From the NCBI RefSeq assembly GCF_030651915.1, contig NZ_JAUSBV010000005.1, positions 496,001-560,000 on the forward strand: a stretch of 64,000 bases of DNA. Direction: 5' to 3'. Below are positions 13,924 to 22,259 of the stretch, one piece after another. The position numbers and the translations under genes were made by a program. The notes under the pieces are model-generated. The model saw nothing but the letters and a program-made list of their open reading frames with translations, was not told the DNA's origin and searched no databases. Position 1 is the stretch's first letter. Every line of letters starts with the position of its first letter. Origin of the DNA: Parvibaculum sp. (lineage in GTDB: Bacteria > Pseudomonadota > Alphaproteobacteria > Parvibaculales > Parvibaculaceae).

Positions 13924-14388
13924 TCAGCAGCGCTGGTCGATCACGACGATGTTCTTGTGCCCGGTTTGCGTTGCAAACGCCGCATGGTTGTTGCCGGTCT
14001 GCTTGACGAGCGCGACGTTCTTCGATCCGGCCTGAGACAGCCCGGCAAGGTTGTTTGTGCCCTTCTGCTCAACGACGACGCCGTTGCCGGAGCCGGCCTG
14101 ATTGACCGCAACGTTGTTGCCCGCCGCTCCGCCGCCGCACGCGCGCGCCGCGAACGATGTTGCGCGGGGCCCCGGCGGGTTGTTGGCGAGCCGGGTCACC
14201 GTGCTCGCATAAAGCCTCGGTTTGATCTGCCGCGTCAGCACCTTTGTTTGACCGCCGGCTTGCTGAACGACCGTGACGTTGAAGTTTCCGTCCTGATTGA
14301 CGGCGGCAAGGCTTCCGGCCGACGCCGGCGGCGCCGACAGCGACAGGACCATGCCTGCAACGGACAAGATGAGCGGCAAGCGTTTCAT
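13924..14388 (-). CDS. Curlin-repeat protein (curli subunit)
   Basis: 154 residues: a signal peptide (MKRLPLILSVAGMVLSLSAPPASA) followed by Gln/Asn-rich curlin half-repeats of the AxxxQxGxxN type, for example VNQDGNFNVTVVQQAG, VNQAGSGNGVVVEQKG, LSQAGSKNVALVKQTG and ATQTGHKNIVVIDQ. A spacer of about 45 residues with a CGGG turn splits the repeats, which is unusual for a plain CsgA. This fits an extracellular functional amyloid subunit, possibly the nucleator (CsgB role). The start has a good GCAGGAGAG site. It is divergent from a second curlin gene across 285 bases. The exact role, major or minor subunit, is inferred. Confidence 0.82.
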   Translation of the reverse strand: MKRLPLILSVAGMVLSLSAPPASAGSLAAVNQDGNFNVTVVQQAGGQTKVLTRQIKPRLYASTVTRLANNPPGPRATSFAARACGGGAAGNNVAVNQAGSGNGVVVEQKGTNNLAGLSQAGSKNVALVKQTGNNHAAFATQTGHKNIVVIDQRC

Positions 14389-14673: not shown

Positions 14674-15177
14674 ATGAAGAAGTTTCTACTGGCCAGTGCC
14701 GCCCTCACCGCCCTGATCGCCGCGAGCGCCACCGGCGCCAGCGCCGGCAACAGTGCCGCAGTCTATCAGAAGGGCTGGAACAACACCGGCGTCTACACGC
14801 AGAACGGTTACGGCAACAGGGGCACGCTCGATACGAAGGGCAATGCCAACTACTCCAAGGCCGTGCAGAGCGGGCAGTGGAACTACCTCTACCAGCAGCA
14901 GCTCGGCAACCGGAATTCGGCGCTCACCGATCAGTATGGCAAGGGCAACTACGCCGTGACTGGCCAGGAAGGCCGCAACAACGATGCCGTGACCATTCAG
15001 ACGGGCCGCAACAACACCTCGGGCATCGCCCAGATCGGCAACAACCACACGGCGACGACCGATCAGCTCGGCACCAACAACACGGCGGCCACGATCCAGG
15101 TCGGCAATGGCCAGACGGCCAAGACGGTCCAGACCGGTCACGGCAACACGACAGTCGTCATTCAGGGCGGCTACTGA
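14674..15177 (+). CDS. Curlin-repeat protein (CsgA-like major subunit)
   Basis: 167 residues with a signal peptide (MKKFLLASAALTALIAASATGASA) and an almost uninterrupted run of about nine curlin half-repeats of the pattern N-x-A-x-x-x-Q-x-G, such as DQYGKGNYAVTGQEGRNND, VTIQTGRNNTSG and AQIGNNHTATTDQLG. Such repeats stack into the cross-beta core of curli-like amyloid. An AGGAG site lies 8 bases before the ATG. It is followed after 67 bases by csgH, whose product restrains curlin aggregation, so both are probably co-transcribed. The secretion pore csgG and chaperones csgE/csgF are not in the window. Confidence 0.87.
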   Translation: MKKFLLASAALTALIAASATGASAGNSAAVYQKGWNNTGVYTQNGYGNRGTLDTKGNANYSKAVQSGQWNYLYQQQLGNRNSALTDQYGKGNYAVTGQEGRNNDAVTIQTGRNNTSGIAQIGNNHTATTDQLGTNNTAATIQVGNGQTAKTVQTGHGNTTVVIQGGY

Positions 15178-17301: not shown

Positions 17302-17625
17302 TCATTCCGGCAGCACCTGACCTGCATGAGGGGCGCCTTCGAGCGGTTTTGCTGCATGGAACTCCACAAAGAGCCGCACGGGCCCCAACGGTTGCACGTC
17401 ATGCGGCTGTTCGGGCCAGACCACGCCGGGCATCGCCGGCGTCAGCACCTGCTCTTCGGATGTATCGAGACAGCGGTACAGCAAGCGGCCTTCCAGCACA
17501 TGAATGAGCGCCCATACGCCGGCCTTCGTGCGGTGCTCGCGGCGAAGCCCGGCCGGCAGACTGTCCTGATCGAAGACCGGCGTCCGCTTGTAGGCCACGA
17601 GCCCATCCGGCAATTTTCCCGGCAC
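17302..17625 (-). CDS. YeaR-like DUF1971 protein
   Basis: 107-residue small cupin-like protein of the DUF1971 family. It has the family signature LPDGLVAYKRTPVFDQDSLP, then LRREHRTKAGVWALIHVLEG, LLYRCLD and a final VEFHA. The family includes E. coli YeaR, a member of the nitrate and nitric-oxide (NsrR) responsive regulon, and the N-terminal part of some TehB proteins; the biochemical function is unknown. The GTG start shares one base with the TAG stop of the alternative oxidase gene (TAGTG), so translation is coupled. The operon sits behind a predicted NsrR operator, which agrees with a role under NO stress. Confidence 0.85.
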   Translation of the reverse strand: MPGKLPDGLVAYKRTPVFDQDSLPAGLRREHRTKAGVWALIHVLEGRLLYRCLDTSEEQVLTPAMPGVVWPEQPHDVQPLGPVRLFVEFHAAKPLEGAPHAGQVLPE

Positions 17626-18296
17626 TAGACGGGCTTCCGAATGCCGGTGCGGTCTGCCTGCTTCGATTTGCGATGGCCGGCCAACTCGTCGGCAAAGCCG
17701 TGATTGACGTCGCGATGGTTTGCCTCGTCGGCGCGCACGGCGATCACCACATCCCGGAGCCGGGCGTCGTCCGGCAGATGCCAGTAGCGAATTGCGATTG
17801 CAGGCGCCGGCACGTCTGCATGCCGTCCGGCTTCGATCTCGGCGAGATACTGGGTGTAGCTGATGATCGCCTCTTCCTCGAAATATCCGACGACCCGGTG
17901 AGCGGTTTTCGGCGAAATCAGATAGAGCAGAAAGAAGGCATTGTAGAAAATTCCCTGCACGATCATGACGAGCAGGCGTTCGAAAGCATTGGGTTTTGCG
18001 ATCTCGATAAAGGTCATCAGATGCATGCGCTCGTTCTCGGCTTCATCGAGCAATGTGCGGATCCAGCCCTCGTCGTCGCACATCCGTCGCAGGCTTCTGA
18101 GGTGGATGAGCGTTGCGCCCACCATGCCCGGCACGGCCGCCACCGTCTCGAGAACGATGGCCCGGTGGCCGTAGCGCTTGGCGAAGAATGTATCGGCGAA
18201 AAAGCGCAGCAGTTTGACGAAGCCGAGAGCGATGCGGTCCGACGGACCGCGCGCTTCGTGGTGCATATTCAGGTCAACAGTGCCGTGGTCTGACAT
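17625..18296 (-). CDS. aox: Alternative oxidase (quinol oxidase)
   Basis: 223-residue di-iron, membrane-attached ubiquinol oxidase that reduces oxygen to water without pumping protons and resists cyanide and nitric oxide. All iron-ligand motifs are present: [31 protein letters not shown] and [12 protein letters not shown], supplying four Glu and two His. The hydrophobic stretches around ATLIHLRSL and [19 protein letters not shown] fit the membrane-binding face. The ATG at 18296 has an AAGGA site. It is first in an operon with a YeaR-like gene and lies 142 bases downstream of a 23-bp NsrR-type palindrome, so it is probably derepressed by nitric oxide. Bacterial AOX is uncommon but known in alphaproteobacteria and Vibrio. 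Confidence 0.93.
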
Positions 18297-18438
18297 GGAG
18301 CCATCCTTTCTGTCGACGAAGCGAACACAACCACCGCTCCGCCGCAGTTACAGATACGCGGACCTTTCTGCCTGCACATGCCAACTCACCTGCATCAGGC
18401 GAGCGACAGGCAACGTCGAAATAGATGTAGGCCGCAAT

Positions 18439-18461
18439 AATATGTATTTCAAATACATATT
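18439..18461. promoter_or_regulatory. NsrR-type operator upstream of alternative oxidase
   Basis: A perfect 23-bp palindrome with 11-base arms AATATGTATTT and AAATACATATT around a central C. Every position fits the 11-1-11 consensus of the NO-sensing Rrf2 repressor NsrR (AAnATGyATTt-n-AAATrCATnTT). On the gene strand a TTGAAA inside it could serve as a -35 box, with TACATC 17 bases on as a weak -10. The rest of the 322-base gap 18297-18618 shows nothing else recognisable. Confidence 0.75.
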
Positions 18462-18618: not shown

Positions 18619-18693
18619 TGGCTGGGGCGGGAGGACTCGAACCTCCGAATGGCGGAATCAAAATCCGCTGCCTTACCACTTGGCTACGCCCCA
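18619..18693 (-). tRNA. tRNA-Gln (TTG)
   Basis: A 75-base cloverleaf on the minus strand: acceptor TGGGGCG pairs with CGCCCCA, the anticodon loop TTTTGAT gives anticodon TTG, the T-loop reads GGTTCGAGTCC, and CCA is encoded at the 3' end. Confidence 0.96.
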
Positions 18694-18852: not shown

Positions 18853-18929
18853 CGGAGTGTGGCGCAGCCTGGTAGCGCACCTCGTTCGGGACGAGGGGGT
18901 CGGAGGTTCGAATCCTCTCACTCCGACCA
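18853..18929 (+). tRNA. tRNA-Pro (CGG)
   Basis: A 77-base cloverleaf: acceptor CGGAGTG pairs with CACTCCG, the anticodon stem CCTCG/CGAGG holds loop TTCGGGA with anticodon CGG, the T-loop reads GGTTCGAATCC, and CCA is encoded. No integrase or attachment-site duplication is seen next to it. The following 275 bases up to the transferase gene hold nothing recognisable. Confidence 0.96.
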
Positions 18930-20115: not shown

Positions 20116-20267
20116 TCGTCATCTGCCGAGGGCCGGGGTGCGCCAGCGGGACGGTTGTGTCCTGCCGCATCCTCGCTTGCGTCCGGACTTTTCCGTTTCC
20201 TGTTTCTCCCCTTCTCCCGGCGCCATGCGGCCGGGGTTGGCCGCGCCAGAGACAGGGCACTCATCCA

Positions 20268-22259
20268 ATGAAACTCGCAAGCCGGGCGGCGATAGCCGCT
20301 CTCGTTCTACCGGTTTTCGCTGCAAGCGCGGCGCATGCCGACGACACGCCCGTTGCACCCGAAGTGCTGGTGACAGCCGGCGTCGAACCGCTGCCGACCA
20401 AGCAGGTTGCAAGTTCCTTCACGATCATCACGGCGGCGGACATCGAGACCTTTCAGTATCGCGACGTCGTCGATGCGTTGAAATCCGTTCCGGGCCTGCA
20501 TGTCGTGCAGTCCGGTTCGCGCGGTTCACAGACGTCGATCTTCACGCGCGGCGCCAGCTCCAACCAGACGCTGGTGATGGTCAACGGGCTGCCGGTCAAC
20601 GATCCGGCTTCGCCGGGCGGAGCCGCCAATCTCGCCAATATCCCGCTCGACAATGTCGAGCGCATCGAAGTGGTGCGCGGGCCGCAATCGGCGCTTTACG
20701 GCAGCCAGGCGATGGGCGGCGTCGTCAACATCATCACCAGGACGGGCGGCGAAAAGCCGGTCACGACGTTGCGCGTCGAAGGCGGAACGCTCGGGACGCT
20801 CAACACACATGCGAGCACCGGCGGCGCTACCGGCAATGTCGACTATTTCCTCTCGCTCTCGCGCGAAGCAACCAACGGTTCGGACGTGACGCCCGCCCGC
20901 CTTCGCGACGCGCGCGGCAAGGAGAAGGACGGCAACGAAGTCGTTTCGGCTTCCGGCCGCATCGGCGCAAAGCTCAACGAACATCTCAGCGTCTCTGCCT
21001 TCGTCCAGTACACGGATTCCGACACCGATATCGACGATGACGGCGCGACGGCAGGCTTCGTGCCTGTGTTCCAGAATTTCGACAGCACCTACCGATCGAA
21101 GCGGCTGCTCGTTTCGGGCGACGTCGCCGGCAGCTTCCTCGACAACAAATGGCGCCCCAAATTCTCGGTCGGTGTGACACAGTACAAGTCGCAACTCGAC
21201 GACAACCCCGATCCCGGCGGATCGATCTATCTCGCCGATGTCGAATACAAAGGGCAGACGGTCGTCGCGCGCTTCGAGAACGCGCTCGACATTCACCCGC
21301 AGCACCTTCTGACATTCGGCGGCAGCTATATGCGGGACGACTATTCGTCGAATGGATTGCGCGACTTCGGCGGTTTCGTCGTCACATCGACGTCGGATGC
21401 CGATGCCGACGCCTTTGCAGTCTATGCGGCCGATCACATGAATTTCGGCGAGCGCTTCTTCGCCACGGTCAGCCTGCATCACGACATGCCGGACGATTTG
21501 AAGAACCACACCTCGTACACTGTCGCGCCGGGCTACTATCATCCGGAAACGGATACGCGCCTGACTGCGAGCTACGGCACCGGCTTCAAGACGCCGTCTC
21601 TCTATCAGCGCTACGGCAACGAGTTCAGCGCCTTTCTCGGCTTCCCTGCCGGGCAGTATACCGGCAACCCGAACCTCAAGCCCGAGACGAGCCGGGGCTG
21701 GGAAGTCGGGATCGAACAGGGACTTGCCGGCGGCAAGGCGCGCGCCGGCGCGACCTGGTTTGAAAGCCGGGTCAAGGACGCCATCGAAATCATCTTCGAT
21801 CCGTTCACGGGCGATTCCACCGCCGCCAATCTCCGGCGTTTCGACGTCAAGGGGTTCGAAAGCTTCATCGAGATAACGCCGATCGAGCGGCTCACCGCGC
21901 GCATCGACTACACATGGATGTCGCTCGACACCAACACGGCGGCGGTCGTCGGCGCGCTCACCCGCCGGCCCCGCCACGAGATCGGCTTCACCGCGAGCTG
22001 GCAGCCCCGGGATGGCACGGTTTTCGCGACCAATGTGCAATGGGTCGACCCCGACCGCGACATTCCGCGCGACGGCTTCGGCTTCTATGTCTACCCCGCG
22101 TCCTACACAATCGTGAACGTCGCGGCCTCGCATCGGTTGACGGAGAGCATCCAGTTGACGGCGCGGATCAACAACCTGCTCGACAAGACCTATGAACCGG
22201 CGCACGGCCTCGAAGCACCGGGTATCGAGGCGCTTGCCGGCATCGCGTTCTCGTTCTGA
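20268..22259 (+). CDS. btuB: TonB-dependent vitamin B12 receptor (BtuB-like)
   Basis: 663-residue outer-membrane receptor expected to import cobalamin with energy from TonB-ExbBD. It has a signal peptide MKLASRAAIAALVLPVFAASAAHA, a TonB-box-like PEVLVTA, and a plug domain (about residues 35-150) with NGLPVNDP, IPLDNVERIEVVRGPQSALYG and GGVVNIIT. The 22-strand barrel ends in RINNLLDKTYEP and a terminal Phe (GIAFSF). ATG 20268 is preferred over a GTG at 20157 because the signal peptide begins there. The B12 riboswitch in its leader gives the substrate. No btuFCD or cobalamin synthesis genes lie next to it. A terminator follows. Confidence 0.92.
   Translation: MKLASRAAIAALVLPVFAASAAHADDTPVAPEVLVTAGVEPLPTKQVASSFTIITAADIETFQYRDVVDALKSVPGLHVVQSGSRGSQTSIFTRGASSNQTLVMVNGLPVNDPASPGGAANLANIPLDNVERIEVVRGPQSALYGSQAMGGVVNIITRTGGEKPVTTLRVEGGTLGTLNTHASTGGATGNVDYFLSLSREATNGSDVTPARLRDARGKEKDGNEVVSASGRIGAKLNEHLSVSAFVQYTDSDTDIDDDGATAGFVPVFQNFDSTYRSKRLLVSGDVAGSFLDNKWRPKFSVGVTQYKSQLDDNPDPGGSIYLADVEYKGQTVVARFENALDIHPQHLLTFGGSYMRDDYSSNGLRDFGGFVVTSTSDADADAFAVYAADHMNFGERFFATVSLHHDMPDDLKNHTSYTVAPGYYHPETDTRLTASYGTGFKTPSLYQRYGNEFSAFLGFPAGQYTGNPNLKPETSRGWEVGIEQGLAGGKARAGATWFESRVKDAIEIIFDPFTGDSTAANLRRFDVKGFESFIEITPIERLTARIDYTWMSLDTNTAAVVGALTRRPRHEIGFTASWQPRDGTVFATNVQWVDPDRDIPRDGFGFYVYPASYTIVNVAASHRLTESIQLTARINNLLDKTYEPAHGLEAPGIEALAGIAFSF

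Follow-up and report, generated by a model that had tools for sequence, protein, structure and literature searches.

Control of the alternative oxidase gene aox by NsrR has reportedly been described for Vibrio fischeri by Dunn in 2010 and again in 2018. The V. fischeri NsrR regulon has been predicted to include aox (PMC1274295), and the accessible part of that article mentions neither a DUF1971 gene nor a truncated haemoglobin gene together with aox. The locus described here is like that of V. fischeri in that an alternative oxidase gene is placed under NsrR, although in V. fischeri the gene is raised by nitric oxide (NO), according to the text available, and here the control is predicted from sequence. 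It differs in that aox is followed by a DUF1971 gene and in that the relatives of these genes cluster with nsrR and a gene for a group III truncated haemoglobin (TrHb3). Another parallel is the alphaproteobacterial aox of Sphingopyxis granuli TFA, for which induction by NO has been reported or inferred (PMC6472365, PMC7713065); in the accessible portions of these articles, both NO and anoxia in the presence of nitrate raise this gene strongly. The Sphingopyxis, Novosphingobium and Tsuneonella loci that were scanned, among which that of strain TFA does not figure, differ from the present one in having no NsrR-like site and another conserved element upstream.

In E. coli, yeaR belongs to the NsrR regulon and is 160-fold up in nitrate-treated cells, and the NO scavenging activity examined in the same work did not need yeaR-yoaG (PMC5320621, available in part). 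The second gene of the present operon resembles yeaR-yoaG in specifying a DUF1971 protein, a likeness seen in a fold match to 3bb6, but E. coli yeaR-yoaG is not paired with aox. Legionella glbN-lpg2536, from a species lacking hmp, has a truncated globin among the targets of NsrR (PMC1274295, in the part available); glbN is paired there with a ferredoxin reductase and not with AOX and DUF1971. Campylobacter Ctb is likewise a group III truncated haemoglobin and is NO-inducible, but its regulator is the Crp-Fnr protein NssR (PMC3820574, accessible sections). Homologues of tehB also occur in NsrR regulons, and NsrR is named in one alphaproteobacterium in the accessible part of PMC1274295.

NsrR-controlled aox is thus already known from V. 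fischeri and NO-induced aox from Sphingopyxis. No description of an nsrR, TrHb3-aox-DUF1971 module was found in a literature search which left most subscription journals out of its reach. The available part of PMC3770913, a match for alternative oxidase with truncated haemoglobin, contains no such gene cluster, and a word search of the main text of PMC6431628, on alphaproteobacterial oxygen reductases, returned neither NsrR nor globin.

An aox-DUF1971 operon

The window, by which we mean the whole 64-kb stretch of Parvibaculum DNA that was analysed, contains a two-gene operon that probably allows respiration to continue when NO poisons the normal oxidases. Its features are as follows.

17625..18296, minus strand: aox, encoding an alternative oxidase, a di-iron quinol oxidase of 223 aa (Pfam PF01786, 284 bits)
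17302..17625, minus strand: gene for a DUF1971 / YeaR-like small cupin of 107 aa (Pfam PF09313, 82.4 bits; predicted fold)
17625..17625, minus strand: base common to the aox stop and the DUF1971 start (from the reading frames)
18439..18461, no strand: NsrR-like operator, a perfect 11-1-11 inverted repeat, AATATGTATTTCAAATACATATT (pattern, matrix and palindrome scans)

The match of the aox product to the Pfam AOX family far exceeds the cut-off of 22.7 bits. Residues E50, E89, H92, E141, E191 and H194 (window numbering), which we take to be the four glutamate and two histidine ligands of the AOX di-iron centre, all fall in invariant columns of an alignment of 13 AOX proteins and lie inside the region aligned with the trypanosome-type mitochondrial AOX of known structure. 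Solved homologues of the product are 9kun, 9m2a and 3vv9. The DUF1971 match lies well above its cut-off of 23.1 bits, and the predicted fold of the protein has a mean pLDDT of 90.2. In a Foldseek search with this fold, ranks 1-11 were taken by TehB 3m70, 3dl3 and E. coli YeaR 3bb6. Residues H31 and H75 of the DUF1971 protein are invariant in an alignment of 35 rows (34 places, one gene appearing twice) and also in a second alignment of 29.

The aox stop codon TAG (17627-17625) and the DUF1971 start codon GTG (17625-17623) share base 17625, and this overlap makes translational coupling of the two genes likely. An alternative start for DUF1971, TTG, lies 12 bases downstream of the GTG. A preliminary description of the locus had reported an AOX with all of its di-iron ligands, followed by a DUF1971 gene sharing one base with the aox stop; both statements agree with the present results, and the coordinates were right.

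A putative NsrR operator and its candidate regulator

The palindrome upstream of the operon, AATATGTATTT-C-AAATACATATT, pairs at 11 of 11 arm positions, and 142 bp separate it from the aox start codon. No odd-centred palindrome in the window is longer, and about 0.04 would be expected from base composition at such an arm length. It has no mismatches to AANATGYATTTNAAATRCATNTT, the pattern taken here as the NsrR consensus, so the preliminary description of a perfect 23-bp palindrome that fits the 11-1-11 consensus throughout was accurate. It is the sole match with up to three mismatches in the 64 kb, and none of 100 shuffles gave one. A matrix score provides support independent of that pattern, since the matrix was derived from published E. 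coli sites, 17 of those tabulated in PMC5320621. By this matrix the palindrome scores 31.8 bits and the next-best separate place in the window 10.6, as compared with 20.8 to 37.8 bits for the 17 E. coli sites and maxima of 5.7 to 21.7 in 20 mononucleotide shuffles. A search for a sigma-70-like promoter near or overlapping the operator found none, which tells against the proposed control, as does the distance to the start codon.

Six Rrf2 genes score above the Pfam cut-off in the genome. A scan of the whole genome for the consensus, allowing up to three mismatches, returned two places, namely the window site and AAGATGCATAGTAAATACATCTT on another contig (C10:30900-30922), while the reversed pattern returned none. 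This second site sits between divergent genes for an Rrf2 (NsrR-like) protein and a truncated haemoglobin. The Rrf2 protein has three cysteines in the NsrR arrangement, and its best solved relative is NsrR 5n07. Its best NCBIfam model is also NsrR, at 142.9 bits, but because this is under the equivalog cut-off of 182 and RirA reaches 127.9, the protein is named only NsrR-like here. The solved structure nearest to the globin is 2ig3 (6.7e-20; next 3.4e-5), which is a group III truncated haemoglobin and presumably Campylobacter Ctb; the globin matches Pfam Bac_globin at 25.8 bits (cut-off 21). The NsrR homologue that the preliminary description would have the genome contain therefore has a candidate, and the second site lies in the promoter region of its gene. 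Together with the comparisons that follow, these sequence features support the predicted control of the operon by an NsrR-type regulator well.

Operator-like sites at other loci

Within the order to which the genome belongs, AOX was found in three of 40 genomes, these being the genome itself, a near-identical relative (G033) and a third genome (G035) that is considered below. The near-identical relative has the same locus, with two changes in the palindrome. Two genomes lacking aox also bear on the operator. One, of the same family (G003), carries AATAAGTATTTCAAATACATATT, identical to the window site at 22 of 23 bases, between nsrR and an hmp-like gene that is read, from its sequence, as flavohaemoglobin hmp. 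The other, of the same genus (G034), has an operator-like site between nsrR and TrHb3. The palindrome thus recurs in relatives, as the reading in the preliminary description requires. A pattern search of 385 genomes with up to two mismatches gave matches in 44, as against 19 for the reversed control, 13 of these of a rounded size below 2 Mb. An NsrR-like match was present at seven of the 29 new loci obtained for part of the pattern matches, including, as a weak match, the aox locus of one genome (L184 in G370).

A wider comparison drew on 80 named aox loci, 37 loci (window included) of a sample of the class Alphaproteobacteria, one genome of which holds the same aox as a named Brevundimonas, and two further loci of the order. 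Removal of two duplicates, and of one locus whose upstream sequence was too short, left 116 distinct loci. The named loci lean to close kin because they are the best 80 of 566 confirmed candidates, whereas the class sample is free of that lean. Genes for NsrR-like, TrHb3 and DUF1971 proteins were sought near aox with profiles built in this analysis; for most class loci the flanks extend only 1.5 kb, so absences there are lower bounds. Sites were scanned for in the 350 bp before aox or, at loci with TrHb3 ahead of aox, before TrHb3. A site was called operator-like at up to six mismatches if this was reached by no more than one in 100 dinucleotide shuffles, a threshold chosen after a first look at the site table.

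By this measure an operator-like site is present at 19 of the 20 aox loci with a linked NsrR-like gene versus 5 of the 96 without (Fisher p ~3e-16, the loci being related and so not independent). If one weak NsrR match (L045) is counted as absent, the figures become 18/19 and 6/97. The 19 sites range from one mismatch (one site) and two (one) through three (four), four (five) and five (seven) to six (one), so that eight of them have five or six mismatches, among those with five a site of another type in G035. Only four pairs were usable in a tree-aware test of NsrR linkage against the site, which was not significant; with so few supported pairs it proves nothing. If the NsrR assignments are true, NsrR-type control spans several alphaproteobacterial orders, compared with the one alphaproteobacterium named in the accessible part of the 2005 survey (PMC1274295).

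A predicted respiratory bypass under nitric oxide

We infer operator binding, NO sensing, induction and NO-resistant respiration, and consider it quite probable that aox-DUF1971 belongs to a small NsrR regulon and provides an NO-resistant respiratory bypass. Without NO, the iron-sulphur repressor NsrR, encoded by the gene on contig C10, would occupy the palindrome and keep aox off. Damage by NO to the NsrR cluster would then derepress aox-DUF1971 and also, by way of the second site, the genes for NsrR and TrHb3. The haemoglobin would bind or oxidise NO, and AOX, which is described as NO-resistant in the accessible part of PMC3820574, would sustain quinol oxidation while NO or nitrite holds up the haem oxidases (aa3-like and cbb3-like). 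The small DUF1971 cupin would be produced simultaneously with AOX.

The respiratory complement of the genome gives this proposal its context. Two COX1-type proteins are present, assigned from sequence as aa3-like and cbb3-like, and the genome has no third such protein to serve as an NO reductase from this superfamily. It also has no match to bd oxidase, and AOX appears to be the only non-haem terminal oxidase recognised in it. For NirK there are two matches, both far under the cut-off, and none above it. Two globin matches come in addition to TrHb3; one consists of a single globin domain and the other is fused to dCache and HAMP, neither of them being a flavohaemoglobin as far as the reading frames show. 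The globin-dCache-HAMP fusion lies in one long frame (G000:C5 near 325570, L203), as in a globin-bearing chemoreceptor. If the proposal is true, it suggests a route to NO tolerance in a genome where the search, which covered flavohaemoglobin, COX1-type NO reductase and bd oxidase, detected none of the three.

Alternatively, aox could be controlled by NsrR and have its main use in some other bypass, as with nitrite-inhibited oxidases, sulphide, cyanide or over-reduced quinones. AOX evidently has uses outside NsrR control, since in the class sample 32 of 37 aox loci are without an operator-like site at the above threshold, and at 31 of 37 neither NsrR nor TrHb3 nor DUF1971 lies nearby (in flanks of mostly 1.5 kb). 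In addition, nitrite rather than NO is held to be the main in vivo inhibitor of haem-copper oxidases in the available part of a review (PMC8780969). The operator, the partner locus with NsrR and TrHb3, and the comparison with hmp nevertheless point to NO as the signal, and a main use other than NO resistance is considered unlikely.

DUF1971 and its genomic neighbours

The preliminary description proposed that the DUF1971 protein may act with AOX itself, in a pairing not known to it from alphaproteobacteria. The pairing is not confined to this genome, as DUF1971 directly follows aox at 22 of the 116 distinct loci, including the window and its near-copy in G033. The neighbours found near aox at the 116 loci are all three genes at 13, TrHb3 and DUF1971 at 12, TrHb3 alone at 8, DUF1971 alone at 7, NsrR and TrHb3 at 4, NsrR and DUF1971 at 2, NsrR alone at 1, and none at 69. 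Compact clusters in which nsrR adjoins TrHb3-aox-DUF1971 occur in Reyranella, Roseomonas, Croceibacterium, Sphingobium, Aurantiacibacter and others, and the genome studied here has the same parts at two places, each with its own site. In the class sample TrHb3 is linked at 4 of 37 aox loci, DUF1971 at 4/37 and an NsrR-like gene at only 3/37 (one of them weak), a low share that tells against the regulon reading. The AOX tree is poorly resolved, with 58 of 112 inner branches open, and places the window AOX outside the groups of the compact clusters. In a comparison with the C10, C4 and G035 regulators, many NsrR-like regulators of compact clusters (among L052, L062, L073, L075 and others) have the cysteine spacing C-x2-C-x5-C, and the regulators of the window genome and of some relatives have C-x7-C-x5-C.

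A role for DUF1971 dedicated to AOX, such as assembling the oxidase, loading its metal or regulating it, would fit the 22 loci just mentioned as well as the gene junctions, where an in-frame DUF1971 start overlaps the aox stop or follows it by no more than four bases at 16 of 20. It would also fit the order, in which the three genomes of 40 that have AOX are precisely those with DUF1971, although two of the three are nearly identical there. Across the class sample of 385 genomes, however, DUF1971 is found in 31 and AOX in 41, and both in four against about 3.3 expected. DUF1971 neighbourhoods were examined at 30 loci out of 37 class-sample matches, one of them (L152) cut by a contig end, and within ~1.5 kb they hold TrHb3 at 15/30, an NsrR-like gene at 8/30 and AOX at 4/30. 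A second DUF1971 gene in the genome adjoins a second Rrf2 gene in a locus that has no aox. Within one genus, moreover, nsrR adjoins TrHb3-DUF1971 with no aox match in one genome (G316), and aox lies between TrHb3 and DUF1971 in another (G393). Co-occurrence across the class and gene neighbourhood therefore do not favour an AOX-specific partner, which is judged quite unlikely.

TrHb3 and DUF1971 are the steadier pair, as seen from the neighbour counts, from the presence of TrHb3 in front at 14 of the 22 loci with DUF1971 directly after aox, and from the two genomes of that one genus. AOX looks like an optional piece between them, and the gene arrangements suggest a role for DUF1971 in the TrHb3/NO arm and not with AOX itself. 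The earlier reading thus finds support in the NsrR candidate, the second site and the recurrence in relatives, and is not supported as regards a specific action of DUF1971 with AOX. A tentative extension, possible but speculative, is that nsrR with TrHb3-aox-DUF1971 forms a self-contained alphaproteobacterial NO-tolerance module that has been passed around, split and rejoined, with the cupin as partner of TrHb3 and AOX as optional cargo between the two. Such a module would bring a sensor together with a scavenger, an oxidase for the bypass and a cupin that might, for example, supply or protect the haem iron of TrHb3 or handle the product of its reaction with NO. Pfam names DUF1971 as a domain of unknown function, and the recurrent operon in which it stands beside TrHb3, sometimes joined by AOX, offers a definite setting in which its role could be tested.

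Some loci depart from this arrangement. At L089, L092, L107, L117, L123 and L126-L128 a conserved element around CTCCGGTAA, CCCTTAGGG and ATCATCCAAATTT lies upstream of aox in place of the NsrR-like site, and another regulator probably acts at the sphingomonad aox loci that share this element. In two sphingomonad loci (L107, L127) aox is followed by a receiver-like protein and then by TrHb3 and DUF1971 in varying order, and L127 has an extra single-domain globin, as judged by eye.

A second Rrf2 locus and the flanks of the operon

The second Rrf2 gene, directly followed by the second DUF1971 gene, lies on contig C4 (G000:C4:46936-50319, L004) and is preceded by a GAGGTATATTAAATACTTC site; the best NCBIfam model for its product is RirA. 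A 153-aa membrane-like protein with no Pfam match at 0.001 is encoded divergently from it. In G035 the genes run regulator, aox, DUF1971, and the site there, AAGGTATATAAAATACCT, is of the type AGGTAT-N5-ATACCT, as is the C4 site. To judge from these two examples of the second type, a change of site seems to go with a change of regulator.

That the window site is bound by another Rrf2 protein such as this RirA/NsrR-like regulator, with iron or redox state rather than NO as the signal, is very unlikely: although the regulator next to aox in G035 is its relative (80% identity) and the C4 protein itself scores best against RirA (149.4 bits, cut-off 193), its own site is of another type than the window site whereas the nsrR-like gene on C10 carries the matching type. 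This argument has two examples of the C4 type behind it, and it is weakened by a scan for that type which was unspecific, with four sites at up to two mismatches versus five for the reversed control and a single mismatch only at C4 itself.

The preferred regulator of aox-DUF1971 remains the NsrR-like protein encoded on C10. In the window, tRNA-Gln (18619-18693) and tRNA-Pro (18853-18929) genes lie just upstream of the operon and mark a possible insertion point. Further out are genes for two curlin-repeat proteins (13924-14388, minus strand; 14674-15177, plus strand) and a TonB-dependent receptor (20157-22259, plus strand).
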